Below, piece by piece: positions 6,543-61,302 of a DNA stretch of 64,000 bases. The DNA comes from Deltaproteobacteria bacterium (lineage in GTDB: Bacteria; Myxococcota_A; UBA796; GCA-2862545). The notes beneath the pieces were generated by a model. The model worked only from the letters and a program-made list of their open reading frames with translations, searched no databases and had not been told where the DNA came from. The DNA lies in NCBI GenBank assembly GCA_007693595.1, contig REDI01000049.1, positions 1 to 64,000 of the forward strand, written 5' to 3'. Position numbers and translations under genes: made by a program. The stretch's first letter is position 1; each line of letters opens with the position of its first letter.

Positions 6543-6558
6543 TGGCACGCCATCTGCA
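6543..6558 (+). promoter_or_regulatory. Sigma-54 (-24/-12) promoter of the cco operon
   Basis: TGGCACGCCATCTGCA matches the consensus TGGCACG-N4-TTGCA at 11 of its 12 specified positions, with GG and GC in exact 10-bp register. The expected transcription start is near 6569, giving a leader of about 16 nt that carries GGAGGT at 6575-6580 just before the ccoN ATG. Confidence 0.75.
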
Positions 6559-16150: not shown

Positions 16151-16280
16151 GGCGCCTCCGGGCCGTCAAGGGCGCGGTCAGTCTACGGCATGCAGGGGGG
16201 GGGCGTCGACCGGGGTTTGACGAGGTCGGGGCGCTGGAGGGTCGCGTGACGGGCGCCAAGGTCGAGACCCCGCGGCGCGT

Positions 16281-16296
16281 TGTGGCATTTAGCACA
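16281..16296. promoter_or_regulatory. TGTGG-N6-GCACA inverted repeat, candidate autoregulatory activator site
   Basis: TGTGGCATTTAGCACA differs at one arm base from the TGTGC-N6-GCACA motif. It shares ATTTAGCACAC with the site near 19937. It lies 62 bp upstream of the -24 element of the regulator's own promoter, a fitting enhancer distance. Confidence 0.55.
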
Positions 16297-16358
16297 CGGA
16301 AAGCCCTCATCTCGTGCCCCTCGACCCGGCCGACATGTTGTATAATGTGGGCTAGGGG

Positions 16359-16374
16359 TGGCACGGTTCCTGCT
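16359..16374 (+). promoter_or_regulatory. Sigma-54 promoter of the regulator gene
   Basis: TGGCACGGTTCCTGCT has a perfect -24 box and a GC at the exact -12 register (consensus TGGCACG-N4-TTGCW). Expected start near 16385, before the TTG start codon at 16408. Implies that the sigma-54 activator is made from a sigma-54 promoter. Confidence 0.7.
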
Positions 16375-16407
16375 TCGGTACACAGGACAGGTGTCTCGGA
16401 GGTCCGG

Positions 16408-17799
16408 TTGACGAAGCCAACAGTGCTGGTAGTGGACGATGAGGAGCTACTTCGGTGGTCCCTGGTCGAGCATCTCAAGGGCGAGGGGTATGACGTAGCG
16501 CAAGGGGCGACCGGCGTCGATGCTATCGAGCAGGTTCGTGCTGTCTCTCCCGATCTGGTCCTGCTCGACCTCAAGATGCCTGAGATGGACGGCATGACAG
16601 CGCTGCGTAAGCTGCGTGAGGAGGGCTTTGAGGTCCCGGTGGTGGTGCTTACCGCCCACGGGGGGGTCGACAGCGCGGTCGAAGCGACCCGGCTCGGCGC
16701 GGCGGACTATCTCTCGAAGCCCTTCGACTTGCGCGAGATCTCCCTCGTGGTCGAGAAGGCTATCGACGACGATCGCCTTCGACAAGAAGTCTTGTACCTC
16801 CGAAGCCGCCAGCGAAATGGCTACGGCGAGTTCATCGGGGCGAGCAAGGCCCTGACCGGGATATTCTCGACCTTGCAGCGCCTCGAGGGCGTTGATGCAC
16901 CCACCGTTCTCATCCAAGGGGAGTCTGGCACTGGCAAGGATGTCCTCGCCAGGGCCATCCATGCGAATGGGCCACGAAAAGACCGGGTCTTTATGGAGGT
17001 TGACTGTGCGGCCCTCCCCGAACAGCTCATCGAGTCGGAGCTCTTCGGGCACGAGAAGGGGGCCTTCACCGACGCGCGAACCATGAAGCGCGGTCTGATC
17101 GAGGTCGCGCGGGGAGGGGTGGTCTTTCTTGACGAGATCGGCGAGATGTCACTCGGGACGCAGGCGAAGCTGCTCCGTGCCCTCGAGAGCCGTCGCTTCA
17201 AGCGCGTCGGGGGTGTCGCCACGCTCCACATGGACGCGGCCGTGATCGCGGCGACCAACCGTGACCTCAAGAGCGAGGTGAAAGAGGGCAAGTTCCGAGA
17301 AGACCTCTACTTTCGTCTTCACGTCATCCCATTGCAGGTCCCTGCGCTCCGGGAGCGGACCGAAGATATTCCCCTGCTCATCGAGCACTTCCTCGATCGA
17401 TTTAATCGTCAGTTCGGGCGGAAGGTCACCGGCCTGTCCGCCGAAGCGATGCAGCGTCTGAGGGCGTACCCCTGGCCCGGCAACGTCCGGGAGCTCCGAA
17501 ACGTGCTCGAGCGCCTGGTCTTGCTCGGTGACGACGGTGTGATCCAGGCCGCCCACCTGCCGCCCGAGATCCGCTACGCGGCGCAGAGCCGCCCCTCCAC
17601 GATCGAGGGCTGTCCCTTCGTCCTCCCTGAAGTGGGCGTGGACCTCGAGGAGGTCGATCGGGGCTTGCTCATCCAGGCGCTCCAGCGAACGGACGGCAAC
17701 CAGTCCGCTGCGGCCCGCTTACTCAGCATCTCGCGTTACGCGCTACGCTACCGCATGGAGAAGTATGGCCTCCTGCAGAAGGGGGGGCCCAAGGGTTGA
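16408..17799 (+). CDS. NtrC-family sigma-54-dependent response regulator
   Basis: 463 residues from a TTG start at 16408 (GGAGG 5 nt upstream). That start is also favoured because a longer frame would swallow the sigma-54 promoter. Receiver domain 1-120: acidic pair D10/D11, phosphoacceptor D54 in LVLLDLKMP, and KPF. Central AAA+ domain: Walker A GESGTGKD, sigma-54 contact loop GAFTDA (variant of GAFTGA), Walker B VVFLDEIGEM, and arginine-finger region FREDLYFRL. C-terminal Fis-type helix-turn-helix: GNQSAAARLLSISRYALRYRMEKYGL. It activates sigma-54 promoters after phosphorylation by a histidine kinase, which is not in this window. It is the natural candidate to bind the TGTGC-N6-GCACA sites at ccoN, at usp and in front of itself. 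Confidence 0.93.
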   Translation: MTKPTVLVVDDEELLRWSLVEHLKGEGYDVAQGATGVDAIEQVRAVSPDLVLLDLKMPEMDGMTALRKLREEGFEVPVVVLTAHGGVDSAVEATRLGAADYLSKPFDLREISLVVEKAIDDDRLRQEVLYLRSRQRNGYGEFIGASKALTGIFSTLQRLEGVDAPTVLIQGESGTGKDVLARAIHANGPRKDRVFMEVDCAALPEQLIESELFGHEKGAFTDARTMKRGLIEVARGGVVFLDEIGEMSLGTQAKLLRALESRRFKRVGGVATLHMDAAVIAATNRDLKSEVKEGKFREDLYFRLHVIPLQVPALRERTEDIPLLIEHFLDRFNRQFGRKVTGLSAEAMQRLRAYPWPGNVRELRNVLERLVLLGDDGVIQAAHLPPEIRYAAQSRPSTIEGCPFVLPEVGVDLEEVDRGLLIQALQRTDGNQSAAARLLSISRYALRYRMEKYGLLQKGGPKG

Positions 17800-17843: not shown

Positions 17844-19598
17844 GTGCGCAACGTGATACGGTGGGCCCGTCGGGCGCGGCGAACCCTCGGGGGTAGCGCG
17901 GGCTTGGATCTTTGGTACGACCCTGGCTATCGGCTTCCGATCCCCTCCCTGGGCCCTCGGCACGGCCTTGAGCCCAGACGCGCGGACTTCGTCGCGTGGT
18001 TTCTGACGCTCGAAGGGTTCGTTCACACCGAGGACGTGCACACGCCCCAGCCGGTCCGGTACGGCGACCTGGCCCGAGTCCACACCGAGGAGCTGCTCAC
18101 CTCGCTGACCGATGGGCGCCGTCTGGCCGAGGTCTTTCACACCGACCCCGCCGAGTTTCAGTCCGACGAGGTCATGCAGGCCATCCGTCGGGCCGTTGGA
18201 GGTACGGTCGAGGCCGCGCGTCAGGCGCTGGCGAGTCGCTCGGCGTGCCTGAACCTTCTGGGGGGCTTTCACCATGCCTTTCCCGAGAAAGCGGGTGGCC
18301 TATGCCCGGTCAATGACATCGCGGTGGCGGTGGCGGTCCTTCGTGCGGAGGGCTTCTCTGGACCGATCAGCGTCATCGATCTTGACGCGCACCCCCCCGA
18401 TGGGACGACGGCCTGCCTCGCGGGCGATGAGCGGGTCTGGATCGGATCGCTCTCGGGCTCAGACTGGGGTCCGCTGGTAGGCTGCGATGAGACCGTGCTG
18501 CCTCCGGGCACGGGCGATGGGGCGTATCTGGCGGCGCTCGATGCCTTGCTCGCGAGGATGCCCTCCTCTGAGCTCATCTTCATCATCGCCGGGGGCGATG
18601 TGATCGCCGGGGATCGCATGGGGCAGCTCGGGCTGAGCCTCGACGGGGCCAGACGGCGAGATCTGGCCGTCCTCCAAGCCGTCCAGGGTCGAGGAAGCGT
18701 CTGGTTGCCCGGAGGTGGATACACGACGGAGGCCTGGAAGGTCCTGGCGGGGACGGCGTTTGCGCTGCTCGGGCGAGGCCTGGCCGCGATCCCCAACCGC
18801 GATCCGTTGGACTTGCGCTTCGAGCGCATCGCGTCCCACCTGGATCCGCAGACTCTAGGAAGCGACGAGGAAGACTGGCTCGGTTCCGCCGAGATTGAAG
18901 AGGAGCTTGGGATCCGACAGCGAGCGCCGTCCAGGCTCCTCGGAACGTACACCCGGGAGGGGCTGCTCCACGCCCTCGACGCGTACGGGATCCTCTCTCA
19001 TCTCGCCCGCTTGGGCTACCGCGCTTTTCGGGTGGAGATCGAGGCTGCGGCGCTCGGCGAGCGGGTCCGGGTGCTCGGGAGTGATGCGGGCAGCCAGGAG
19101 CATGTCTTGGGCGAGGTCGTCGTGGAGCGAAAGACCTTGGCGAAGCGTCCGATCGTCTTTGTTCACTGGCTCACCCTTCGGCACCCCGCCAGCACCTTTG
19201 GACGCGCGCGCCCCCAGCTCCCCGGCCAAGAGGTACCCGGGCTGGGGATCTCGGTGGAGGTGGTCGAGCTGCTGAGCCGAGCGGCTGCCCGAACCGACGC
19301 CCATGGGGTTGGCTTTCGGCCCAGCTACTTCCATACGGCTTGGCCAACCTCCGAGCGGTCGTCCTTCGTGGATCCGGGGCGGCAAGGCCGCATGGAGGCG
19401 CTCGTGCGCGATCTGGGGCACCTCGGTCGCTACGACCTCTCGGTGGCGCTTCAGCAGGGGAGGGTCCGGTTGAATGGGGAGCCGTACGCTTGGGAGCCGG
19501 AGCCGATGGTGTACTGGCTCAAAGGGAAGTCTGCTCGCGACCCTCGCGTGGACAAAGAGCTAGAAAAGTATAGGTTTACCCTCTCTGAAGAGCCCTGA
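17844..19598 (+). CDS. Histone-deacetylase-fold protein with an extra C-terminal domain
   Basis: 584 residues; GTG start with CAGGAGG, 44 nt after the regulator, so probably co-transcribed. Residues about 25-315 form an arginase/deacetylase fold: RHGLEPRRA, GGFHHAFPEKAGGLCPVND, the zinc-binding DLDAHPPDGT (D-x-H), and IIAGGDVIAGDRMG. Class II HDAC-like and acetoin-utilisation proteins are about 300-370 residues, so the C-terminal 250 residues are extra. I do not recognise that part (conserved-looking VVVERKTLAKRPIVFVHWLTLRHP). It could deacetylate proteins, polyamines or another acetylated metabolite; the substrate is not readable. Note His-to-Pro in DAHPPDGT where family members usually have HHGDG. 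Confidence 0.82.
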   Translation: MRNVIRWARRARRTLGGSAGLDLWYDPGYRLPIPSLGPRHGLEPRRADFVAWFLTLEGFVHTEDVHTPQPVRYGDLARVHTEELLTSLTDGRRLAEVFHTDPAEFQSDEVMQAIRRAVGGTVEAARQALASRSACLNLLGGFHHAFPEKAGGLCPVNDIAVAVAVLRAEGFSGPISVIDLDAHPPDGTTACLAGDERVWIGSLSGSDWGPLVGCDETVLPPGTGDGAYLAALDALLARMPSSELIFIIAGGDVIAGDRMGQLGLSLDGARRRDLAVLQAVQGRGSVWLPGGGYTTEAWKVLAGTAFALLGRGLAAIPNRDPLDLRFERIASHLDPQTLGSDEEDWLGSAEIEEELGIRQRAPSRLLGTYTREGLLHALDAYGILSHLARLGYRAFRVEIEAAALGERVRVLGSDAGSQEHVLGEVVVERKTLAKRPIVFVHWLTLRHPASTFGRARPQLPGQEVPGLGISVEVVELLSRAAARTDAHGVGFRPSYFHTAWPTSERSSFVDPGRQGRMEALVRDLGHLGRYDLSVALQQGRVRLNGEPYAWEPEPMVYWLKGKSARDPRVDKELEKYRFTLSEEP

Positions 19599-19602
19599 CT
19601 GT

Positions 19603-19851
19603 TCAGCTCCACCCCTCGTCGAAGCGGACGTCGAGCACTTTGGGGTCGCCGTCTTGGGCGCTGACCTCGATGTCGACGAAGTCTAGGCCCATGCGAGTGA
19701 GCAGCGCGCTGAGCTTGTCGCGAACATCGTCGGCGACCTGGACAGGTGCGCTGACCCTGACCCATGACAGGCGCCCGGGGCGCGCCTCGACGCAGGCGTG
19801 GATCTCGTGGGCGAGCTGGTCGAGCACACGCTCGGTCTGGGGCTGGGACAT
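19603..19851 (-). CDS. Small protein of unknown function under a sigma-54 promoter
   Basis: 82 residues; ATG at 19851 with AGGAG 5 nt upstream. No signal peptide or membrane segment. The sequence (MSQPQTERVLDQLAHEIHAC..., ending VLDVRFDEGWS) suggests an alpha/beta fold with an N-terminal amphipathic helix. I do not recognise a family. It is convergent with the deacetylase-fold gene (4 nt gap) and divergent from usp. It shares with usp the inverted repeat at 19937 and has its own -24/-12 promoter on the minus strand. This points to a role in the same response. Confidence 0.75.
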   Translation of the reverse strand: MSQPQTERVLDQLAHEIHACVEARPGRLSWVRVSAPVQVADDVRDKLSALLTRMGLDFVDIEVSAQDGDPKVLDVRFDEGWS

Positions 19852-19882
19852 GGGAACTCCTGGGGAAGGGGTTCGACGTTCT

Positions 19883-19898
19883 TGCAAGCTTGATGCCT
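19883..19898 (-). promoter_or_regulatory. Sigma-54 promoter of the 82-aa gene
   Basis: Read on the minus strand: AGGCATCAAGCTTGCA, with GG and GC 10 bp apart and a perfect TTGCA at -12; the -24 box matches GGCA of TGGCACG. Predicted start near 19873, about 20 nt before the ATG at 19851. Weaker than the ccoN and regulator promoters at -24. Confidence 0.55.
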
Positions 19899-19936
19899 AT
19901 CGTGAAGCGGGTTCCACGGCGAGGACGCCGAGCATA

Positions 19937-19952
19937 TGTGCGATTTAGCACA
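19937..19952. promoter_or_regulatory. Shared inverted repeat TGTGC-N6-GCACA between divergent sigma-54 promoters
   Basis: TGTGCGATTTAGCACA is a perfect 5-6-5 inverted repeat. It lies 73 bp before the -24 element of the usp promoter and 39 bp before that of the 82-aa gene. A single activator site could therefore serve both directions. Confidence 0.65.
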
Positions 19953-20024
19953 CAGCGACGGGCGAGGGTGGGTGGATTATCCCTGTCCAGGTCGCGCAGA
20001 GGCGGTGACGACGTCTCGGTCCAC

Positions 20025-20040
20025 TGGTCCAAGGCTTGCA
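20025..20040 (+). promoter_or_regulatory. Sigma-54 promoter of usp
   Basis: TGGTCCAAGGCTTGCA: the -12 box TTGCA is perfect and GG/GC spacing is exact; the -24 box is TGGTCC against TGGCAC. Predicted start near 20051, leaving a 39-nt leader with CAGGAG before the usp ATG. Confidence 0.6.
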
Positions 20041-20089
20041 GGTGGCTAAGTCCGTCGTGCGCGTCTCGATACTTACCTCAGGAGTCCTC

Positions 20090-20524
20090 ATGTCCTTTCC
20101 CTACGAAAAAGTTCTTGTACCTACCGATTTTTCCGACATTTCTCTCCAGGCGCTCCAGGTCGCTCTCGACGCGACGGGCGGCGACGCGAGCCGACTGCAC
20201 GTCGTCAGCGTGCTGGTCCCCGTCGTTCCTCCTTCTCCTGGCATCGTCTGGGGCACCGTCGACGATCAGGTCCGCCTCACCCGCGTCCAGGAGGCGCTGG
20301 AGCAGCTCTTGTCAGAGCGCGGCCTGGCCGGGGCCACCCCCCACGTCGTGATCGGTACGCCAGGCACGATGGTCGCCGATCTGGCCAAGGAGATCGACGC
20401 CGATCTGGTGGTCGTCACCAGCCACGGCCGAACGGGCCTCGTCCGAGCGGCGCTAGGCTCGGTCGCCGAGCGTGTCGTGCGGCTCTCGCCCGCTCCTGTG
20501 CTCGTCCTGAAGGCTTCGAAGTAG
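20090..20524 (+). CDS. Universal stress protein, UspA family
   Basis: 144 residues; ATG at 20090 with AGGAG 5 nt upstream; a frame running further 5' crosses the promoter. MSFPYEKVLVPTDFSDIS is the classic UspA start, and the ATP-binding signature GTPGTMVADLA...VVTSHGRTGLVRAALGSVAERVVRLSPAPVLVLK is complete (G-2x-G-9x-G(S)). Cytoplasmic single-domain Usp. In other bacteria such Usps are induced under oxygen limitation. Here the same regulatory motif as at the cbb3 operon suggests a similar link. Confidence 0.92.
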   Translation: MSFPYEKVLVPTDFSDISLQALQVALDATGGDASRLHVVSVLVPVVPPSPGIVWGTVDDQVRLTRVQEALEQLLSERGLAGATPHVVIGTPGTMVADLAKEIDADLVVVTSHGRTGLVRAALGSVAERVVRLSPAPVLVLKASK

Positions 20525-20625
20525 CGTTCCAACTTCTCCCCGTCGAGGGGCCGGGCCGGTAGGCATCGGGGGCGCCTCGCGTTAGGGGCCGCCGGCGCCG
20601 TCGGCGGCGCGTCCGGAGGCGTGGA

Positions 20626-22284
20626 GTGGTCTATGCGATAGGAGCGGTCGGGGTTGTGGTCGCCCTGGTGGGCTTCGCGGTTTTTGTGATCGGCGTTCGG
20701 GCTTGGTTGCTACCGCTTCCTCATCGTCGCTTCCTCGGTTTTCGCCCACTCTTGGCGTGGGTGGTGCGCAGGCGCCTCGGCGAGTATCGCGTCCAGTCGA
20801 TCGTGCCCGATCCCTCGTCCCCGGAACAGGCTCAGCGAAGTCACCGGGTCGCGGTGATCGGAGGGGGGATCGCTGGGATCGCCGCCGCGACCACCTTGGC
20901 GGAGCGGGGTGTGAGCGTGACCCTCTTCGAAGGCAACACGTACCTGGGAGGCAAAATCGGGGCATGGCCCGTAAGCTTCGAGGACGGGGGGACCGCCTAC
21001 GTCGAGCATGGTTTTCACGCCTTCTTTCGTCACTACTACAACCTCGACCGCTTCCTCCGTCGCATGGGGTTGCTCGAGGGCATGCGCGCCATCGAGGAGT
21101 ACGTCATCCTGAAGACGGACGGCTCGACCCTCGGCTTTGGGGGAACCGAGACGACGCCGGGCTTGAACATTGTCGACCTGGCGCTTCACGGGGTCTTCGA
21201 CTGGCGTGCGATCATCAAGGATCCGGCCGCCTCCAAGCGAATGGAGGCCCTCCTGCGCTACGACGCGGAGAAGACCTTCGAGCGCTGGGACGACGTCAGC
21301 TTTGCCGAGTTTGCCGAGCGCGCTCGGCTCGCGCCGGACCTGGCGCTCTCGTTTACGACCTTTTCACGGGCTTTCTTCGCGGACCCCGACCGCATGAGCA
21401 TGGCCGAGCTGGTCAAGAGCTTCCACTTCTACTATCTCTCCCACGACTGTGGGCTTGAGTATGATTTTCCTACGCGGAACTACCACACGGCCTTGCTGGA
21501 GCCCATCCGACTCCACCTCGAAGCGAACGGTGTCGACATCCGCTTGGGCAGCCGCGTGAGCAGCATCGAGCGTCGGGACGCTGGCTACCACATCGGCCCG
21601 GACTGGTTCGACGAGGTCGTGCTCGCGGCTCATGTACCCGGCGCAAAGGCCATCGTGAGGAACAGTCCGGATCTCCAGCGAGCGGCTCCTGATCTGGCGC
21701 GCCACATGGCGGAGCTCCAGGCCGGTCAGCGCTATGCGGTCTGGCGTCTGTGGCTCGACGTCGACGCACGGGAGGGGCTGCCGATGTTCGTGATCACCGA
21801 TCGCGAAGAGCTGCTCGACTCCGTAACCTTCTACCACCGTTTTGAGCCGGACTCCGCGGCTTGGGTCGCCGAGCGCGGGCGCGGCTGTGTCTTGGAGCTC
21901 CACTGCTACGCGGTCCCCGATGCCCTCGACGGCCCGGAGCAGGTCAAGGCGGCGCTCCTGCGCGACCTGCATCGATTCTTCGAGGAGCTGTCCGAGGCGA
22001 CGATCCTTCGAGACGCCTTTCAGCTCCGAGACGACTTTCCGGCCTTTCACAAGGGGCTGGCGCGGCATCGACCCGGCGTTCAGACCGGCGCGGCGGGGCT
22101 GTACCTCGCGGGGGACTGGGTTCGGCTGCCCTTCCCAGCCATGCTCATGGAGGCAGCCTTCAGCTCTGGCCTCTTGGCGGCCAACCACATCCTGCGGGGC
22201 TTGGGGGTCCGCGAGGAGCCCGTCTTTCACGTTCCGCTCCAAGGCTTGCTGACGGGCCTGCCCGAGGGGGAGGTCCCAGACTGA
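20626..22284 (+). CDS. CrtU-like FAD-dependent carotenoid desaturase/oxidoreductase
   Basis: 552 residues; GTG start with GGAGG 7 nt upstream. An N-terminal membrane helix (about residues 3-28) precedes a phytoene-desaturase-type FAD fold: VAVIGGGIAGIAAATTLAERGVSVTLFEG (about residues 78-106). The C-terminal GLYLAGDWVRLPFPAMLMEAAFSSGLLAANHIL closely resembles isorenieratene synthase (CrtU) and related carotenoid desaturase-methyltransferases. There is no Rieske domain and no other carotenoid gene nearby. Alternatives include a generic amine-oxidase-family desaturase. It follows usp by 101 nt and may be read through from it. Confidence 0.78.
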   Translation: MVYAIGAVGVVVALVGFAVFVIGVRAWLLPLPHRRFLGFRPLLAWVVRRRLGEYRVQSIVPDPSSPEQAQRSHRVAVIGGGIAGIAAATTLAERGVSVTLFEGNTYLGGKIGAWPVSFEDGGTAYVEHGFHAFFRHYYNLDRFLRRMGLLEGMRAIEEYVILKTDGSTLGFGGTETTPGLNIVDLALHGVFDWRAIIKDPAASKRMEALLRYDAEKTFERWDDVSFAEFAERARLAPDLALSFTTFSRAFFADPDRMSMAELVKSFHFYYLSHDCGLEYDFPTRNYHTALLEPIRLHLEANGVDIRLGSRVSSIERRDAGYHIGPDWFDEVVLAAHVPGAKAIVRNSPDLQRAAPDLARHMAELQAGQRYAVWRLWLDVDAREGLPMFVITDREELLDSVTFYHRFEPDSAAWVAERGRGCVLELHCYAVPDALDGPEQVKAALLRDLHRFFEELSEATILRDAFQLRDDFPAFHKGLARHRPGVQTGAAGLYLAGDWVRLPFPAMLMEAAFSSGLLAANHILRGLGVREEPVFHVPLQGLLTGLPEGEVPD

Positions 22285-52506: not shown

Positions 52507-54462
52507 GTGTCCCCTCGCCTCGTCTTGATGGTCTCCCTTCCCGCGTTCTTGCCGGTGCCTGCTGCGCACGGCGCGGACGAGCCCGAGGAGCTCATCGTGG
52601 AGGGGGAGCGTCGGCGCGCGGCCGATCCGGCGGAGGCCCGCATGGCCGTGACGACGATCGCCGTCGACGAGCGCCTGCCCGAGGGCGCGGATCTGGCCGA
52701 CGCCATCGCCCGATCGCCTGGCACGACGGTCCAGCGGCTTGGAGGACTCGGGGACTTCAGCGCCGTCTCGCTGCGGGGCGCGGCGCTCCGGCAGGTTCAG
52801 GTCCACCTCGACGGCCTCCCGCTCAACCCCGACGGCAGCGCGGCCTTCAACCTCTCAGAGCTACCCCTGCGGGCCTTCGAGCGGGTCGAGATCTGGCGCG
52901 GCGCGGGTCCGGCGGCGCTCGCAGCCGCGCCGCTCGGCGGTGTGATCGATCTGCGAACCGCGGCGGATGCCCGAGCGCCCCTCACGGTCGAAGGCACCTT
53001 CGGATCCTGGTCTACGGGGAGGGGAGCCGTCCGCGGCGCCACCACGATCGGAGGGACCGAGATCTTGGGCGCAGCCGAGGTGCTCACCACGCAGTCGGAC
53101 TTTCGGTACTTCGATGACAATGGAACGGACGGCTACTGGCTGGATGACCGGATCCGGCGTCGAGCGAGCAACGACAAGCGCCAGGCGTCGGGTCTCCTGC
53201 GTCTTCGGAGCACCAAGGGGGCGGTGCGGCGGACGGGGCTGATCCTCCTCAACGCCCGCGACGAAGGCCTGCCTGGTCCCATCGGCGCGCCAGCGGATGG
53301 GCGGCTCCGTACCCTCTGGGCGCTGGGTAGCGGGGGGCTCGAAGGAGCGCAGGGCCAGACCGCGCTCTCGGCGCGCGCGTGGGGCCAGCTCCGCGATGAA
53401 CGCCTCACGCTGCCCTCAGGCGAGGCCATCCCGGAGCAGCAAGGTCACCTCGGCCTCTCTTTGGGAGCGGTACGACCCTGGGCACGCGGCGAGGTGGGCC
53501 TCACCCTTCAGGGCCGCTTCGATGGGCGGGCCAGGGTCCTGGAGCAGCCGGGCGCCGCCCGACTGACCTTGACCGGCGTCGGACACGGAACCCTCTCCTT
53601 GGCGAACGACCGCTTGCTTCTCGAGGCGGTGGCCCAGGGGCAGGGCTGGTGGGAGCAGCGTGAAGGGGTGCGGATCCTGCGCTTCGCGCCGCTTCCTCGC
53701 GTGGGTGCGCGCGCGCGGGCCTCGGACTCGGTCACCCTCCGCACGGCTGCGGGGCGGGCGGTCCGGCCCCCCGACTTTCTGGAGCTCTTCGGCGATCGCG
53801 GCCCGATGCGTGGGCGGTCCGATCTGCGTCCAGAGCGCGGCACCTGGGCGGACGCTGGCCTGCGCCTGCACGGCGAAGGCCAAGGTGCGGAGCTCGGCCT
53901 CTTCATCCACCACGCCCTCGATCGGATCGTTTACGTTCAGAACGCTCAGCGCGATCTGGTGCCCATCAACCTCGGTGAGAGCGTGGTCGGTGGGGTTGAG
54001 CTTGGTGGAGATGTGCAGCGTTCGTGGTTCGACGCACGAGCCAGCCTGAACCTCAGCCCGAGCTTCGTGGTGAGCGAGGTCTCGGGGCTCCACGGGCGAC
54101 GGCTTCCGCGCATCCCGCCCGTTGGTGGCTTCGTCGAGGTCGCGCTTCGACACAAGCGAATCGCCAGGGTGAGCTACGACCTCGCCTACGATGGCGGCAA
54201 TGCGTGGGACGAGGCAGGGCTCTTCGTCGCGCCGCCCCGTGCGCTTCACGGCGCCTCCGTCCGACTTCAGCCGCGAAGTGGGCTTCCAGCGATCGGGATC
54301 ACGGTTCGAAACCTGACCGATACGCTCGTTGCCCCCATGTCCCGTGATCCCCGAAACCCAGCCTCGGGGGACGTGCTCCGCCCGCTGACCGACTTCGCGG
54401 GATATCCCCTGCCTGGACGGACGGCCTTGATCACCCTGACGTGGAGTCCATCATCCTCCTGA
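52507..54462 (+). CDS. TonB-dependent outer-membrane receptor
   Basis: 651 residues from GTG at 52507. Signal peptide MVSLPAFLPVPAAHGA, then a TonB-box-like EELIVEGE. The plug domain has LPEGADLADAIARSPGTTVQRLGGLGDFSAVSLRGAALRQVQVHLDGLPLNP and RVEIWRGAGPAALAAAPLGGVIDLRT. The 22-strand barrel shows the closing VRNLTDTLVAPMSRDPRNPASGDVLRPLTDFAGYPLPGRTALITLTW. BtuB/CirA-like length. The ligand is unknown; no cobalamin riboswitch or siderophore genes are nearby. The downstream lipoprotein gene overlaps its 3' end. Confidence 0.92.
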   Translation: MSPRLVLMVSLPAFLPVPAAHGADEPEELIVEGERRRAADPAEARMAVTTIAVDERLPEGADLADAIARSPGTTVQRLGGLGDFSAVSLRGAALRQVQVHLDGLPLNPDGSAAFNLSELPLRAFERVEIWRGAGPAALAAAPLGGVIDLRTAADARAPLTVEGTFGSWSTGRGAVRGATTIGGTEILGAAEVLTTQSDFRYFDDNGTDGYWLDDRIRRRASNDKRQASGLLRLRSTKGAVRRTGLILLNARDEGLPGPIGAPADGRLRTLWALGSGGLEGAQGQTALSARAWGQLRDERLTLPSGEAIPEQQGHLGLSLGAVRPWARGEVGLTLQGRFDGRARVLEQPGAARLTLTGVGHGTLSLANDRLLLEAVAQGQGWWEQREGVRILRFAPLPRVGARARASDSVTLRTAAGRAVRPPDFLELFGDRGPMRGRSDLRPERGTWADAGLRLHGEGQGAELGLFIHHALDRIVYVQNAQRDLVPINLGESVVGGVELGGDVQRSWFDARASLNLSPSFVVSEVSGLHGRRLPRIPPVGGFVEVALRHKRIARVSYDLAYDGGNAWDEAGLFVAPPRALHGASVRLQPRSGLPAIGITVRNLTDTLVAPMSRDPRNPASGDVLRPLTDFAGYPLPGRTALITLTWSPSSS

Positions 54463-55535
54463 GATCTGCGATGATCGTGCTCTGCGCCGCCTGTGTAGGG
54501 AGTGTCGAACCGGCGTGCCTGGGTCCCGAGCCCGCGGATCCGCCGCAGGCGGCGGTCCTCAGCACGCTGACGGAGCGCTTCGATGCCGGTACCTTGTCGG
54601 TGATCGAGCTCTCGGACCTTACGGTCTGCGATGGGGTCACCGCCGCCACAGGCGACAGCGTGGTGAGGACGCAGGACGAGGCCGTGATCCAGCTCGATCG
54701 CTTTCGCTACGATCGGGTGCGGATCTTCCATCCTCCGCGCTGGCACGAGCCGGTCACGGAGTTCTCCGTGGGGCGGGGCGCCAACCCTCATGACGTCGCC
54801 CGCTGCGGTGGAGCGTGGCTGATCAGCCTGTACGAAGAGGACGCCCTCGGTCTGTTCGACGACGAGGGGCATCGGATCGGCGAGATCGGGCTGAGTGAAC
54901 ACGCCGATGGCGATGGTCTCCCAGAGGCGAGCGGGATCGTCGGCCTGGGCGACACCGCCTGGGTGGCCCTCGAGCGTCTTTCGCGGACCTCCACGGGCTT
55001 CTTCCCGGAGGGCCCAGGGCGGCTGGTCGAGATCTCGTGCGATGTCCACCGCGTGAGCGGCTGGGTCGAAGCCCCGCCCAACGTGCAAGTCGACGTCGGG
55101 GCGGATGGCGTGATCCGGGCCTTCGGAGCGGATGGGCGGCTGATGCGCTTGGATCCAGAGCAGGCGGTGCTCCAGCCTGAGCTCACCTTTGAGAAACCGA
55201 TCGCACAGGTGGCCTTCGACGCCGACGGGTACGGGGTGGTGATCACCCGCGGCGCGCGGTTGTGGCACGAGCTGTGGTGCGTCGATCCGCAGGGTGAGGT
55301 CGAGCCCTTTTTTGCGACAGACGCCTTCTTGCCCACCCTCGTACCCGCCCCGGACGGCACGATCTGGGCCGCGGTGCGTCGGGGGTGGGCCTCTGCCGAC
55401 AGCGCACCTGAGGGCTTTGTTGTCCACAAGGAACCCACAACCGGCATCTGGCGCTTCGAGCCCAAGACCTGTCGCCTGATCGACGACGCTCCGATCCCGA
55501 CCGCGCTGCCGCCCTTCAGTATCGACTTCTACTGA
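54441..55535 (+). CDS. Beta-propeller-like lipoprotein, partner of the TonB receptor
   Basis: 364 residues if started at the GTG at 54441, which overlaps the receptor gene by 22 nt; the ATG at 54471 (354 aa) is the alternative. The hydrophobic N-terminus MIVLCAACVGS looks like a lipoprotein signal. The remainder has repeated beta-blade patterns (NPHDVARCGGAWLISLYEEDALGLFDDEGHRIGEI, NVQVDVGADGVIRAFGADGRLMRLD). Overlap and order suggest that it binds the same ligand as the receptor at the cell surface. Function otherwise unknown. Confidence 0.75.
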   Translation: MESIILLRSAMIVLCAACVGSVEPACLGPEPADPPQAAVLSTLTERFDAGTLSVIELSDLTVCDGVTAATGDSVVRTQDEAVIQLDRFRYDRVRIFHPPRWHEPVTEFSVGRGANPHDVARCGGAWLISLYEEDALGLFDDEGHRIGEIGLSEHADGDGLPEASGIVGLGDTAWVALERLSRTSTGFFPEGPGRLVEISCDVHRVSGWVEAPPNVQVDVGADGVIRAFGADGRLMRLDPEQAVLQPELTFEKPIAQVAFDADGYGVVITRGARLWHELWCVDPQGEVEPFFATDAFLPTLVPAPDGTIWAAVRRGWASADSAPEGFVVHKEPTTGIWRFEPKTCRLIDDAPIPTALPPFSIDFY

Positions 55536-55632
55536 ACGTGATCGGGCTGTGACACACCCGACGACGAGCCGCGCGGTCGGGAGTAGGGTGGGGCGACGGT
55601 CCGGCGATCTGAGTTGCGGGGTGTGCACTGAG

Positions 55633-55660
55633 TTGCTCAATCGCGACCTGACGGTATAAG
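55633..55660 (+). promoter_or_regulatory. Candidate sigma-70-type promoter of the giant RNA
   Basis: TTGCTC (55633-55638), 16 bp, TATAAG (55655-55660). The -10 box matches TATAAT at five of six; the -35 is moderate (TTG conserved). Expected start near 55667. No ribosome site or credible reading frame follows. Confidence 0.5.
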
Positions 55661-58359
55661 CATGATTATGTGTCAGTATCGGACCTGCACAGCGGTCGCC
55701 ACCGACCCTGTCGAGCGCATGAATGGGAAATTATTTGCCGATTCAAGCAAAGGAAAGAGGACGATCTACCGTGGGGTTCATGTTGGCACGGCGTCTGCAC
55801 AGAGTAGGGGTGCAGCCGGTAAGGCCGGTGAGCGACCGAAGGGAACACCCCGAAGCGCTCACCCGCTCGCCGGGTGGGGGCCTCCGGGCAGCCACGTGTT
55901 CTTTGACGTCAAAAACTCCATGGAGGGTGGTGACCCTGCCTCCGTTCGCGCTCCGAAACCTTCGGGTCGAGGAACACGGATCGCACTCACCTACTCGGAC
56001 ATCGGACAGACCTGCTCGAACCGCCCAAGCGTCGCTCGCGACGCGCAAGCGGCCCCACCGCCTCGGCGGCGGGTGCGCGAGCCCTTCGGGGGGAGCGTCG
56101 GGTGGGGGATCGCGCCCTCGTGGCGTGGCGATGTGCCGGGGAAAACCTCGAAGGAGACCAAAGCCCATGGAAGGACAGGAACTCGAGGGTGGAGACACCC
56201 GAGAGATCACGGACTCGTCGACGGAGCAAGGCCTCGAAGGTGACTGCTCCCTCCTCTCTCTCGCAGGGAGGTGGTCGACTCAACACCTATCGGCCTCGTT
56301 CGCGGGGAAGGTAGCGAAGAGTCGTAGCGGTATGGCGCTCACCCCGGTGAGCCTGTGTCGCTCGTGAGACGAGCTGGCATCGCAGCATGACCTCGGTCAG
56401 AGACGCGCGTAACGTCTCGCTGTCGGTGTCGAGCGCGGCCTACGGGTCGCCCCTTGAGTTCTCCCGCCGACGCGGGGGAGCACGAGGAAGCTCAGGGCGC
56501 GCGGCAGGCACCGCGGTCTTGGGTAGGGTTGGGAACCACCTCATGCTCCCAGCTCAGCCGGCAGGAGTCGGCGCGCGGACGAAGCTCCCCAGCTCTCGGC
56601 CGTAGGACCTGCGGATGACGCAGGTGGCTCGACGCGTACCCAGCGCGTCGGTCCTGCAGGTGGCGTGACGGCGTCACCCAAGCTCCCTCTCGGAGGGAGA
56701 CCGTCCCGCGCACTGTGGTGGGTCGGAACGGGGGCTGCTCTCCTCGGAGCGCAGCCGATGGCTCTTTGGGGTCATCCTTGGCATCGAACCTGAGCGATGC
56801 CAAGACGGGATCGCAAGATCCCATCGGCACAGATTCGTCGGTGCCGGTGCCGTCGAGCTGCGAGGCTCGGTCGGTGCGGCTCCCTTCGCGGGGAGCGCTC
56901 AGGCAGCGAACCATTACGCGTGGTTCGTCCGATGGACACGGTGCGACGGCCCGTGACCGCCGACACTTCGGTCGTCGGCAGGAGCTCTTCGGAGTCTCCG
57001 AGCCAGCCTGCCCCGGTCCCGGCGGCGCAGGGCGGTACGCTACGTCAGTAGCAGCAGTAGAGCGCGTCTCTCGCCTGAGAGGGAGGTGACTTGAGCTCGG
57101 CCTCGGTCGAGGGTGTCCTTCGGGGACACGACAGCGCACGACGCGCTCCGGGCGTCGGCGTCCCAGCCTCGGCTGGGTCCCGCGTGAGCGGGTGTGGGTG
57201 GCTTCGGCCCCTACGGATCACCGCGTGGCTGTGGTGGGTGCGACCCTTCGCGGGTTGGCACAAGTCAGCGCTTCGGCGCTGGCGGACGTCTGAGTTCTAG
57301 CGACGGACTCAGCGGGTGGGGACACCACTTCGGAGGTGTCGAGCGGTTTCGCTCATGGGGCTGCCTCTCGCAGTCAGGGGTGCCGACCCGACTCGGCGAA
57401 CCGGGCTTCCGGCCGACCCTCTACGGCCGGGGCGTGTACCACGTCGGATAGGGTACACACTCGCCAGCGATGGTGGGGCCGAGGAGCGGGACCTTCGGGT
57501 AGCGCTCAGCAGCTCGCCCGGGCTGCACAGCGGTACGGCGCTCGCACCGTGCCGGGCCATCAACGCGTGCTCTTCGGGGCGCGCAAGGGTGGACAGAGGG
57601 TAGGGAACGGGTCTTCCCGTACCGAGGGATCCCGACGGCTCTTCGGAGCCGAGCCGCTCCCCGTCAAACGGGATGTGGTGTCTCACAGCAGGGTAGAAAC
57701 GCCAAGGAGGCAACGGCCGCGGTGACGCGGTGCGGCTGTCGACAAGGAATACCCTTCGAAGGGTCCGACATGCATCGCGAGGGCAGCTCCTCGCGAGCCC
57801 AGAGGTTCGCCTCGACGCTCGCAGGAAGCAGAAACGCGATGAACCCCAGAGCCGGCAGCAGGATGCAACAAGCCTGCAGAGCTGGTGCGGAGCAAGCCGG
57901 CGAGGTGGTGCGAAACCACGAGGTCGGAACGCGATGGAGTCGCATGGCCGCGGCTCCCCAAAGCCGCCTTCGGGTGGTGGGAGTAGACGCATCGGTCGTG
58001 GAGCGTGCTCGCAGCGAGTGCTCAGGCTTCGGTCTGAACTCGTCGTGAATCAGGCACGTGACGCGCGAACGGCAGAGGGGAACCGAGAACGGACGGACTG
58101 CGCCAAGCGGCTCATCAGAAGTGGTGAGGGCGCGAGCGCGAGGGGCCTGGGTGGTGCGGTGGCGTGCCCCAAGGTCATGCAGGGCAGCGAGAGGCTTTGG
58201 TCTTGAGCGGCTGCGTCGAACGTCCTCAAAGAGAGGCGCCGGAGACGGCGTAAGCTCACAGAGGGCTGCGGGAGAGGCCAACGACCCGCATCGTCGCAAG
58301 TGCAGGCAGGTTTACACTAGCGTTTGTTGGTGTCTGCCCGCTCCCTGGTAGTCCACGGT

Positions 58360-58379
58360 CGCGCACTCGCGAGTGCGCG
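58360..58379 (+). repeat. 20-bp perfect palindrome in the 3' part of the giant RNA
   Basis: Perfect two-fold symmetry across 58360-58379 (half CGCGCACTCG). In RNA it would form an 8-bp hairpin with a CGCG loop, or pair between two molecules. Confidence 0.8.
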
Positions 58380-58428
58380 CTCAGCTCAGGTCCCGTTCGT
58401 CCTGTCCTCCATCGGCTTTACCGGCTGC

Positions 58429-58467
58429 TCGCCCCGATCAAGTTCGCTTGGTCGGGGCGATTTTTTT
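58429..58467 (+). terminator. Intrinsic terminator of the giant RNA
   Basis: A 14-bp stem: 58429-58437 pairs with 58452-58460, then T-G, C-G, A-T, A-T and G-C pairs up to a TTCG loop at 58443-58446. Directly followed by seven T (58461-58467). The T-tract is only on the plus strand, so it ends plus-strand transcription. One of the clearest intrinsic terminators in the window. Confidence 0.9.
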
Positions 58468-58583
58468 GTGGGGCGGGCCGAGCGTCGGCTGTTGGGCGTG
58501 GGCGCGTCGCCGGTCTGCGCTGCCGCGGTTGGGATCGAGGGTCGGTTCCCACCGCTGTCGAGACTCAGCGTCGGCATCCGCGC

Positions 58584-59363
58584 CTATTTCTTTGGAGGGG
58601 GCTTGGGGCGGCGGTAGACCCAGCGGGTCTCGGTGCTGGCCTGTTCGTCGTAGCGGTAGTCCATCACGACCGCCTCGCGGACCTCGATGGGTCGCGTGAT
58701 GCGGTGCTCGACGATCCAGCGGGCCAGGGCGCCTCGGGCTTGCTTGGCGTAGAAGCTGATCGTTCGGGCCTTCCCTTTGCTGACGTCTTGAAAGACCGGC
58801 GTGATGACGGGCAGGTCGAGAGCGTTCTGGTCGACCGCTCGGAAGTATTCTTGGGAAGCGAGGTTCAGGACCGTCGGCTCGGGGTGGGATGTGGCGATCT
58901 CGTGGATCCTTCGTGCGATCTTGTCGCCCCAGAATGCGTAGAGGTTCCTTCCTCGGTCCGTGTGGAGCGAGGTGCCCATCTCGAGGCGGTAGGGATGGAT
59001 CCGGTCGAGGGGGCGGAGCAGGCCGTAGAGCCCCGAGAGGATTCCGACGTGGTCCTGGGCCCACCTCAGATCGGCCTCGGACAGCTGGTGGGCGTCGAGG
59101 CCTTGGTAGACGTCGCCTGCGAAGGTCAAGACGGCGGGGGTGCCCTCGCTGTGATCGGGGCTCCAGCTTGCGAAACGCTCGACGTTGAGCGTGGCGAGGT
59201 TGTCGGAGAGGTTCATCAGGGCCTTGAGGTCCCCGACATCAAGCCCCTTGGCGCGCTCGGCGAGCTCGATGGAGTCCTGGGTGAAGTAAGGTTCCGTCGA
59301 AGAGATCGATCGAGGCGCCGGGTCGAGCTGGAGCTTCTTGGCGGGGGAGAGCAGGACGAACAC
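58584..59363 (-). CDS. yaaA: Peroxide stress protein YaaA (DUF328)
   Basis: 259 residues; GTG start with TGGAGG 5 nt upstream. Full-length YaaA: SPAKKLQLDP at the N-terminus, LTFAGDVYQGLDA, ILSGLYGLLRPLDRIHPYRLEMGT, YAFWGDKIA, LNLASQEYFRAV, and KGKARTISFYAKQARGALARWI. Binds DNA and limits intracellular free iron during peroxide stress in E. coli. Convergent with the giant RNA. Confidence 0.95.
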   Translation of the reverse strand: MFVLLSPAKKLQLDPAPRSISSTEPYFTQDSIELAERAKGLDVGDLKALMNLSDNLATLNVERFASWSPDHSEGTPAVLTFAGDVYQGLDAHQLSEADLRWAQDHVGILSGLYGLLRPLDRIHPYRLEMGTSLHTDRGRNLYAFWGDKIARRIHEIATSHPEPTVLNLASQEYFRAVDQNALDLPVITPVFQDVSKGKARTISFYAKQARGALARWIVEHRITRPIEVREAVVMDYRYDEQASTETRWVYRRPKPPPKK

Positions 59364-59523
59364 GATCGCCTCCAGTGCAAGGAGGGGCGCTAACCCAATC
59401 GGAGCTCGAAGGGGGCGTGGGCGAGGCTACCGCGTGGAGGTTCCGGGTCGCGGTAGCGGGGCTCGGTGCCTGGCCGCAGCCTCCGGGGTGATCGATTCGG
59501 TTAGGCCTGCGGCTGGAGGCACG

Positions 59524-60801
59524 ATGTCCGAGACCCTGCGTTGGCTGGAGCGCGCCCGAATCTCTCCAGAAGCGGTGAGAGACGCCCTGTGGACCTTACG
59601 AGATCCGGAACAGGCTCGCATGGCGGCCCTCGCGCTGCGCGCGGTCGGGCCTGCGGGGGCTGGGGCCCTCGCCGAGGCGCTGGAGGTGCCCGAGGCGCGG
59701 GTGAGGGCGGTGGTGATCGAGACGGCGGCGCTGCTCCCGAGCCTCACGGCCGCGCTGGCCGACAGGGTGGACCAGGAACCACTCCCTTGGCTCCGTCGGG
59801 CCTTGGTTCGGGCCGTCGCGCCTCGATCTCCAGCGCGGGCCAGGGCTTGGAGCTGCGCCCCCGATCTCACCGTGCGCGCGGAGGCGCTACGAGCCTGTCC
59901 CAAGGATGAGGCGTCGGCGTCGCTCGCGGCCGCTGCCTTGCGCGAGCTCGATCCAGGCGGCCGCGCTGACCCTGCCGACCGCGTCGTGCGCGTCGTGCGC
60001 GTCGAGGTCGCCTGGCATGCCTGTACGATCCTCGCCGTGTACCCGGTGGCCGATACCGCGGAGATCCTGCGCTCTCTCAGCCGCTCCCCCAACCCCTTTC
60101 TGGCGAGCCAGGCCGCCCTTGCCCTCGTCGCGGGGGGCGGCCGCGCTGCGCCTTCCATGGGTCGGCTCTTCGACCCTGCGGTGCCCTCAGACCTTCAGGG
60201 AATGACTAAGCTGCGCGACGAGGACCCCCGCGACCTCGAGCTCGCCGAGATCGGACTCCTCCGGGGAGCCGAGCCTCTCCTTCTCCGCGCCGCGCTGGGA
60301 CGGCTTTCGTCCTCGCCGGCGACGAGCGCGGCGATCGCTGCCGCCCTGTCCCACCCCCTGCCCGAGGTGCGTAAGCTGGCGCTCACGGCGCTCGATCGCC
60401 GTAGGGATGACCCGGTCTGGGAGGCTTACGAGCGCATGGAGGCCGAAGAGCCCGAGCCGGAGCTCCGCGAGGCCTTGCTGTGGACCCTGGGCCGGCGCTC
60501 GGAGCCGCCGAGCCTTCGGCCTTTGATCCGCGCGGCCTGCCGGGAGCGCTCACCTAGCCGGGAGGTGGCGATCCAAGCTCTCTTGGCACGGGTCAAGCGC
60601 ACGGCGCGTGCCCGTACCCAAGAAGCAGGGGAGGCCTTGGTCTCGAGACTTCGCGACGGCAGTCTGCGAGAGCGAGGGCTGGCGGCGGAAGCGCTGGGGC
60701 GTTTCTCGGATCCCCAGACGGCTCAGGCGCTTCGATCGGCGCTCCCACAGGCTCCGCGCGAGCTCCGCGCCCGGATCGAAGAGAGCCTCCAGCGGCGCTG
60801 A
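59524..60801 (+). CDS. HEAT-repeat protein
   Basis: 425 residues; ATG at 59524 with GGAGG 5 nt upstream; an in-frame extension upstream is not supported. Built of Ala/Leu/Arg-rich helical pairs, e.g. ALRAVGPAGAGALAEALEVPEARVRAVVIETAALL and LVSRLRDGSLRERGLAAEALGRFSDPQTAQALRSALPQAPRELRARI. Probably an alpha-solenoid scaffold. No signal peptide. Partner unknown. Confidence 0.82.
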   Translation: MSETLRWLERARISPEAVRDALWTLRDPEQARMAALALRAVGPAGAGALAEALEVPEARVRAVVIETAALLPSLTAALADRVDQEPLPWLRRALVRAVAPRSPARARAWSCAPDLTVRAEALRACPKDEASASLAAAALRELDPGGRADPADRVVRVVRVEVAWHACTILAVYPVADTAEILRSLSRSPNPFLASQAALALVAGGGRAAPSMGRLFDPAVPSDLQGMTKLRDEDPRDLELAEIGLLRGAEPLLLRAALGRLSSSPATSAAIAAALSHPLPEVRKLALTALDRRRDDPVWEAYERMEAEEPEPELREALLWTLGRRSEPPSLRPLIRAACRERSPSREVAIQALLARVKRTARARTQEAGEALVSRLRDGSLRERGLAAEALGRFSDPQTAQALRSALPQAPRELRARIEESLQRR

Positions 60802-60840
60802 GGCCGGGAGGCTCTCTACCCTACGTCGCGCGAGCTCTGG

Positions 60841-61302
60841 CTACTCGCCCCATTCGCTGCGGATGTAGGCGACCGCCGCCTTGGCGTCTTGCTCGTTCAC
60901 CACCGAGCCCCAGGGCGGCATAATGCCGACATCGCCGCTCACGCCTTCGCGGATCGACTTGACCAGCGCCGCGTCGGACTTTGCGAGACGAGCAGGATCA
61001 TCGGGGAAGCTTGCGGCTTGGCCATTGTTCCCCTTGCCGTCGGCCCCATGGCAGGCGACACAGTAGGTGTTGTAGACCTCTTTGCCGCGGGCGACCGGAT
61101 CGGGCGCAGCTTCTTCGGCGTCGGGATCGATGCTGCCGCCGACCTCGGTCGCGGTCGCCTGGGTGTCCTTGACGTCTTCGGCGTGGTGATGATCCAGACC
61201 GAGCTCTTCGCGGACTTCCGCCCGAACACGGTCGTAGTTGGCCTGGTTGGGGTTGGTCGCTCCGCAAGCGGTGAGCGCGAGAGAGAGCAGGATGAGGCGC
61301 AT
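60841..61302 (-). CDS. Cytochrome c lipoprotein (single heme)
   Basis: 153 residues. MRLILLSLALTAC lipobox, then a charged linker with a His triplet (ELGLDHHHAED), then a cytochrome c domain with TYCVACHGADGKGNNGQAASF and the Met ligand region DVGIMPPWGSVVNEQDAKAAVAYIRSEWG. Third monoheme lipoprotein cytochrome in the window. Probably a membrane-anchored electron carrier; the His-rich segment could bind metal. Confidence 0.9.
   Translation of the reverse strand: MRLILLSLALTACGATNPNQANYDRVRAEVREELGLDHHHAEDVKDTQATATEVGGSIDPDAEEAAPDPVARGKEVYNTYCVACHGADGKGNNGQAASFPDDPARLAKSDAALVKSIREGVSGDVGIMPPWGSVVNEQDAKAAVAYIRSEWGE

Follow-up and report, generated by a model that had tools for sequence, protein, structure and literature searches.

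Very few large structured RNAs of unknown function are known in bacteria. Among those closest to the RNA described here, OLE is dimeric and GOLLD and ROOL form RNA-only cages; recent structures establish that large bacterial RNAs can build cages without protein, and no catalytic role is known for these RNAs (PMC12286853). GOLLD is the largest of the three, with many members exceeding 800 nt, and GOLLD and ROOL sit in phages or prophages near tRNA islands. In myxobacteria, the small RNA Pxr (~108 nt) is apparently transcribed from σ54 promoters, has paralogues, and adjoins nla19 in the homologues examined (PMC5568312). Ribosomal RNA offers a further point of reference: its expansion segments extend the helix tips of a conserved core by lineage-specific, hairpin-rich insertions, and its copies are dispersed within a genome.

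Here we analyze a 64,000-nucleotide stretch of DNA from a deltaproteobacterium (hereafter the window), in which positions 55810–58467 very likely constitute a structured RNA gene of an undescribed family, its transcription as one molecule being inferred. Like OLE, GOLLD, and ROOL, the predicted products are large, intricately folded noncoding RNAs, and the family likely joins, in a loose sense, these ornate RNAs of unknown function while exceeding them in predicted size (~1.0–2.7 kb, versus many GOLLD members above 800 nt). In contrast to the setting of GOLLD and ROOL, no tRNA or tmRNA was detected anywhere in the window, there were no phage matches, and the neighbors encode a TonB receptor and YaaA. 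Control by σ54, dispersal in multiple copies, and a duplicated core are unreported for OLE, GOLLD, or ROOL in the literature we searched. The family shares with Pxr the character of a σ54-linked noncoding RNA with paralogues, but its members are 10–25 times larger and dispersed, and the two are unrelated in size and location. By analogy, the helix-tip expansion of the window RNA is comparable in form to that of rRNA, to which it has no homology.

A hairpin-rich stretch without a conserved reading frame

On one side of the locus lies an ORF of 364 aa, which follows a TonB-dependent receptor gene; on the other, downstream and on the opposite strand, lies yaaA. An earlier note on this DNA had read positions 55667–58467 as a giant structured RNA with its own promoter and terminator, citing a strand bias of CTTCGG and a high density of hairpins. 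Both observations held on recounting: CTTCGG occurs 13 times and its complement CCGAAG twice, and the stretch contains 27 perfect hairpins (stem of at least 6, loop of 3–8), compared to 0–16 in other non-overlapping segments of 2.8 kb, making it the richest 2.8 kb of the window. The next most hairpin-rich segment, at ~18201–21000 with 16 perfect hairpins per 2.8 kb, lies at least partly within an ORF at 17844–19598.

The host genome carries three copies of the locus with unrelated flanks: the window copy (C5); C95, at ~80.9–83.6 kb and 72% identical to the window copy; and C46, which has two matching ends of ~70% identity and a diverged middle. Divergence among these paralogues is 29–42%. Comparing the copies all but excludes the possibility that the stretch is a protein-coding gene or a misread pseudogene. 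In favor of such a gene, there are ORFs of up to 227 aa inside the stretch, a size expected by chance from GC-rich DNA. Against it, these ORFs are not conserved between the three copies, leaving no plausible gene; no reading frame is conserved among the copies, each having 13–18 stops in every forward frame and many indels relative to the others; and one domain of the RNA, B2, shows the covariation described below. A conserved protein frame, one of three findings that the earlier note had said would refute its reading, is therefore absent among the three copies.

A match to Rfam, rRNA, or an intron was the second such finding, and none was obtained. Rfam searches produced no match at E≤1 over positions 53000–61000 and, across the entire window, none that reached a gathering threshold. 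The covariance models of OLE, GOLLD, ROOL, HEARO, and the other Rfam 15 families were not matched, nor was there any model match to, or landmark of, group I or II introns, RNase P, tmRNA, or rRNA. Relatives of the RNA, searched up to E=10, gave only sub-threshold chance matches and no credible ribozyme. A search of the open-access literature, with subscription papers outside its scope, found no description of such an RNA family, which, judged by Rfam and the papers searched, is likely new.

A likely σ54-controlled transcription unit

The promoter originally proposed, a σ70 type with the sequence TTGCTC-16-TATAAG, found no support, a σ70 scan returning zero matches. The broader claim that the RNA has its own promoter held in part: a promoter exists, but it is of the σ54 (−24/−12) type and lies ~125 bp further in. 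This element, TGGCACG-N4-CTGCA at 55784–55799 (forward strand, as are all features of the RNA gene given below), is supported by its sequence, by conservation, and by the point at which paralogue homology starts; 0.02 matches to the motif are expected by chance over the whole window. BLAST homology between the window copy and C95 starts exactly at the σ54 promoter and stops at the terminator, and homology with C46 starts 5 bp before that of C95 and likewise ends at the terminator. Because paralogue homology begins at the σ54 promoter, ~125 bp downstream of the claimed σ70 site, we moved the start to ~55810, with the 5′ end inferred to lie 12 nt past the −12 element. The predicted transcript, 55810–58467, is ~2.66 kb long. 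The terminator held as originally described: an intrinsic terminator at 58429–58467 consists of a 14-pair stem with a UUCG-type loop followed by T7, and has equivalents in C95, in C46, and in many relatives, where strong terminators mostly fall ~480–670 nt past the start of B2.

Considering only loci with enough upstream sequence, a sense σ54 motif precedes 36 of 65 family loci, compared to 4 of 188 control stretches. A strict match is missing in the other 29 of the 65, mostly from distant families, so the promoter is not universal. The host genome encodes RpoN and yields about 13 strong matches to enhancer-binding proteins, and the locus therefore meets the definition of a σ54-dependent gene as a −24/−12 promoter in an RpoN-encoding genome. 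Other σ54 motifs in the genome precede ATG-starting frames, indicating that the host uses such promoters generally.

In many relatives, the palindrome TGGGA-N8-TCCCA is found ~45 nt further upstream than the σ54 motif. The window contains a degenerate, enhancer-like counterpart, TGGGAAATTATTTGCCGA at 55724–55741, which has two mismatches to this pattern and occupies the same position relative to the σ54 site. Searching 60 genomes for the palindrome together with the σ54 pattern produced 28 matches, versus 7 for a reversed-pattern control; in 24 of the 28 the promoter is complete (TTGGCAC context), and the remaining four have no −12 element. The full-form matches examined lead to conserved 5′ sequences of the RNA, the exception being L154, whose contig ends too early to judge. 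When we looked in the same 60 genomes for other genes that the palindrome might control, the pattern proved nearly exclusive to the RNA genes. Taken together, it is likely that the RNA gene is σ54-controlled, an inference drawn from sequence alone in which both transcription and the regulator are inferred.

A duplicated core with a variable helix tip

Downstream of the promoter, the RNA gene contains a conserved motif, TCTTTGACGTCAAAAACTCCATGGAGG at 55900–55926, found toward the 5′ end of most relatives that carry the promoter, and three conserved domains. Domain A (56147–56241; matched by nhmmer in 29 further loci) is the 5′ half of module 1, and domain B1 (57698–57764; matched in 22 further loci) is its 3′ half. 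Domain B2 (57831–57932; 107.5 bits, 14 pairs) is module 2, and its 102 nt served to build a covariance model, R1. In total, A, B1, and B2 were found in about 30, 23, and 32 loci, respectively. The single-stranded positions GGAG-AA, TGCAACA, and GAACCCC of module 2 are highly conserved.

The two halves of module 1 are joined by a helix whose 5′ strand, GCCTC-GAA-GGTG-A-CTGC at 56231–56247, pairs with 57688–57711, as read from the alignment and from complementarity. In L030, L038, and L040 a short loop caps this helix, the L030 version being GCCTG-GAA-GCCGTCAAAACGGC-AAG-CAGGC. Against the B2 model, A+B1 of L030 scores 37.8 bits (E=6e-7 over 795 kb), with weaker matches in L038 and L040; A+B1 is thus a module homologous to B2. 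The conserved core, by its sequence, consists of two homologous modules that arose by internal duplication.

The distance from A to B1 varies across loci, with values of about 5, 32, 79, 107, 139, 254, 455, 770–830, and 1457–1472 nt. The window copy is long because a 1.44-kb expansion (56248–57687), rich in UUCG- and GNRA-type hairpins, opens the tip of the module-1 helix. The relatives that were measured have predicted lengths of 0.99–1.78 kb, and the window and C95 copies are each predicted to reach 2.66 kb. The suggestion that this would be among the largest non-ribosomal structured RNAs therefore holds with a qualifier: strong expansion is confined to the copies of the host genome and a few relatives, and most members are ~1.0–1.8 kb.

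The family in uncultured Myxococcota-type bacteria

Plain DNA comparison found matches in 22 of 58 relatives, mostly as short blocks corresponding to domains A, B1, and B2. The R1 model reached further. It matched 33 of 63 species in the order and 39 of 71 in the class; across the phylum, 66 of 379 sampled genomes gave matches, 27 of these genomes lying outside the class, and a single genome had as many as six. These figures are limited to the sampled genomes. They are also undercounts, since several genomes without an R1 match carry the promoter and 5′ end of the gene at a contig end. Six contigs (L147, L150, L161, L163, L164, and L169) end ~120–140 nt into the RNA gene. Termination of contigs inside the gene fits near-identical, multi-copy genes breaking assemblies, which suggests that copy numbers are underestimated. 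An exact degenerate pattern searched over 84,980 species gave 12 loci, all in uncultured assemblies labeled 'Deltaproteobacteria', 'Myxococcota', or 'Oligoflexia' or in unplaced proteobacterial ones. Many uncultured Myxococcota-type bacteria thus carry the family, and the window RNA, at its predicted length, is the longest member found so far.

Base pairs are preserved in the core, the expansion, and the 5′ and 3′ parts

The strongest evidence for structure comes from B2. Over 75 sequences, its 14 pairs in three helices are paired in 98.5% of cells, compared to 70.7% in shuffles, with 237 both-sided changes versus 56.5±6.9. The covariation score is 0.713, versus 0.184±0.013 for shuffled alignments and no more than 0.096 for every slid register. 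This 75-sequence alignment was fitted to the covariance model and so somewhat favors it; an independent MAFFT alignment of 31 B2 sequences agrees, with one position reading GC in 12, AU in 10, and CG in 9 sequences and unpaired in none. In B1, both-sided changes occur at six of six predicted pairs.

For parts of the RNA alignable only among the three genomic copies, we compared RNAalifold predictions to those for column-shuffled alignments. Consensus folding energies gave z-scores of −6.8 for the 5′ part, −15.8 for the expansion (56252–57690), and −10.2 for the 3′ part, and both-sided pair changes gave 3.0, 5.3, and 7.1, respectively. Loops are kept while stems vary, as in CGGCTCTTCGGAGCCG, CAGCTCTTCGGAGCTG, and CCGCTCTTCGGAGCGG at one and the same place. 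The single-sequence minimum free energy of domain A alone was unremarkable (z −1.4). By sequence, across three paralogues, the 1.44-kb expansion is itself under base-pairing selection.

The third potential refutation, a lack of covarying pairs, is thereby answered by very strong covariation in the core and base-pair-preserving change elsewhere. With conserved secondary structure supported by covariation and no conserved frame, the locus meets two criteria for a large structured noncoding RNA, its transcription as one RNA being inferred from promoter and terminator alone. The central reading of the earlier note consequently stands, none of its three refuting findings having been met, with the promoter type and the start corrected.

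Neighboring genes and dispersal

We clustered the neighboring ORFs of 72 loci and found no gene common to more than seven. Recurrent neighbors, recognized by eye in translation and without a model, looked generic: dehydrogenase-E1-like and TPR-like proteins, a sensor kinase, a LysR-type regulator, and a short-chain dehydrogenase. Six loci (L032, L047, L048, L053, L126, and L129) share an opposite-strand downstream gene of ~730 aa resembling a fused 2-oxoacid dehydrogenase E1, which may reflect inherited synteny rather than a functional link. The RNA could instead be a cis-regulatory leader, or the 3′ region, of a neighboring gene, and same-strand downstream genes are indeed common to four loci. 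We consider this very unlikely, as the RNA has its own promoter and terminator, yaaA downstream in the window is on the opposite strand, and the diversity of neighbors among loci argues strongly against it.

Five genomes carry two copies that are 92–99% identical in unrelated flanks, with homology starting 2 to ~130 bp before the palindrome. Such pairs raise the possibility of a mobile element with its own promoter, such as a transposable or intron-like unit that is degenerate or non-autonomous. Its favor rests on the presence of at least two copies per genome, some of them nearly identical in this way, and on a patchy distribution. Against it, the homology boundaries vary from pair to pair; no terminal repeats or target duplications were visible at the ends of the two copies in genome G048, where they were sought; no reverse transcriptase or transposase recurs among the neighbors of the 72 loci, a motif scan being merely suggestive on this point; and no intron model was matched. 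Searches of phage, plasmid, and viral-contig collections produced no matches. A mobile element is therefore very unlikely, and the copies are likely better explained by a self-contained transcription unit that was duplicated or underwent gene conversion.

Discussion

The reading we favor, with moderate confidence, is that of a stand-alone, inducible, trans-acting large structural RNA or ribonucleoprotein. The family, selection on structure, promoter and terminator boundaries, duplication, and expansion are shown by sequence; transcription, the regulator, action in trans, and the kind of assembly are inferred. In this model, an unidentified signal would act through an NtrC-type enhancer-binding protein, whose probable binding site is TGGGA-N8-TCCCA, to activate σ54 RNA polymerase at TGGCACG-N4-YTGC. 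A single RNA of ~1.0–2.7 kb, ending at the intrinsic terminator, would be produced and would fold around the conserved core of two homologous modules, with lineage-specific hairpin-rich expansions growing from helix tips. Its most likely role would be that of a stable structural RNA, whether a scaffold bound by protein or an assembly of RNA alone resembling OLE, GOLLD, and ROOL. Action in trans is argued by the lack of a common neighbor together with the RNA's own promoter and terminator. Because the two homologous modules share strong conservation of unpaired bases, each may offer an equivalent site at which a protein or a further copy of the RNA binds or makes contact, a possibility that is inference only. 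Several points weigh against this reading: the evidence points to no specific partner or activity, single-transcript status is inferred without transcript data, the strict σ54 promoter is absent from 29 of 65 loci, and the single-sequence fold of domain A is unremarkable.

Two alternatives accept the RNA and assign it a different role, and both seem unlikely. The first is a large ribozyme, with the duplicated core catalytic and the expansions structural padding. The complex, highly conserved single-stranded positions of module 2 and the presence of two similar modules resemble ribozyme cores, but Rfam offers no credible ribozyme even among hits up to E=10, and conserved unpaired bases are equally expected from protein binding or tertiary contacts. 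The second is a small-RNA precursor, in which only modules 1 and 2 would be functional, being processed from a largely disposable transcript to pair with mRNAs. Phylum-wide sequence conservation is concentrated in A, B1, and B2, and Pxr provides a precedent for a processed, σ54-linked small RNA in myxobacteria (PMC5568312). However, the expansion and the 3′ part keep their base pairs despite 29–42% paralogue divergence, unlike disposable spacer. We therefore rank a structural RNA or ribonucleoprotein, possibly an OLE/GOLLD/ROOL-like multimer, above both, as an inference made without functional data.

A bolder reading, which we suspect is somewhat more apt to be wrong than right, is that these are phylum-wide, multi-copy, σ54-induced giant RNAs whose duplicated core and rRNA-like expansion segments, reaching ~2.7 kb, form an RNA-based particle or machine for an inducible physiological state. 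If true, few if any classes of non-ribosomal structured RNA in bacteria would be larger. The family adds a class for which no homology to an Rfam family was detected, and its longest predicted members approach the length of 23S rRNA. The graded size of the module-1 helix (~5 to 1470 nt) makes it a natural system for studying the origin of expansion segments outside the ribosome, and a σ54 promoter and enhancer palindrome almost exclusive to these genes provide an experimental handle.

Several observations concern σ54 regulation around these loci. An enhancer-binding-protein motif was sought near family loci and found at only two. In the window, a gene for an enhancer-binding protein (16246–17799, with a Sigma54_activat match at 16834–17334) lies ~39 kb from the RNA. 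A second perfect σ54 promoter, TGGCACGCCATCTGCA at 6543–6558, is followed by an ATG-starting frame and marks a candidate ordinary σ54-dependent protein gene. At L028, an ORF resembling an enhancer-binding protein sits just upstream of the RNA, at about −2355 to −918 relative to B2, and is a candidate regulator.
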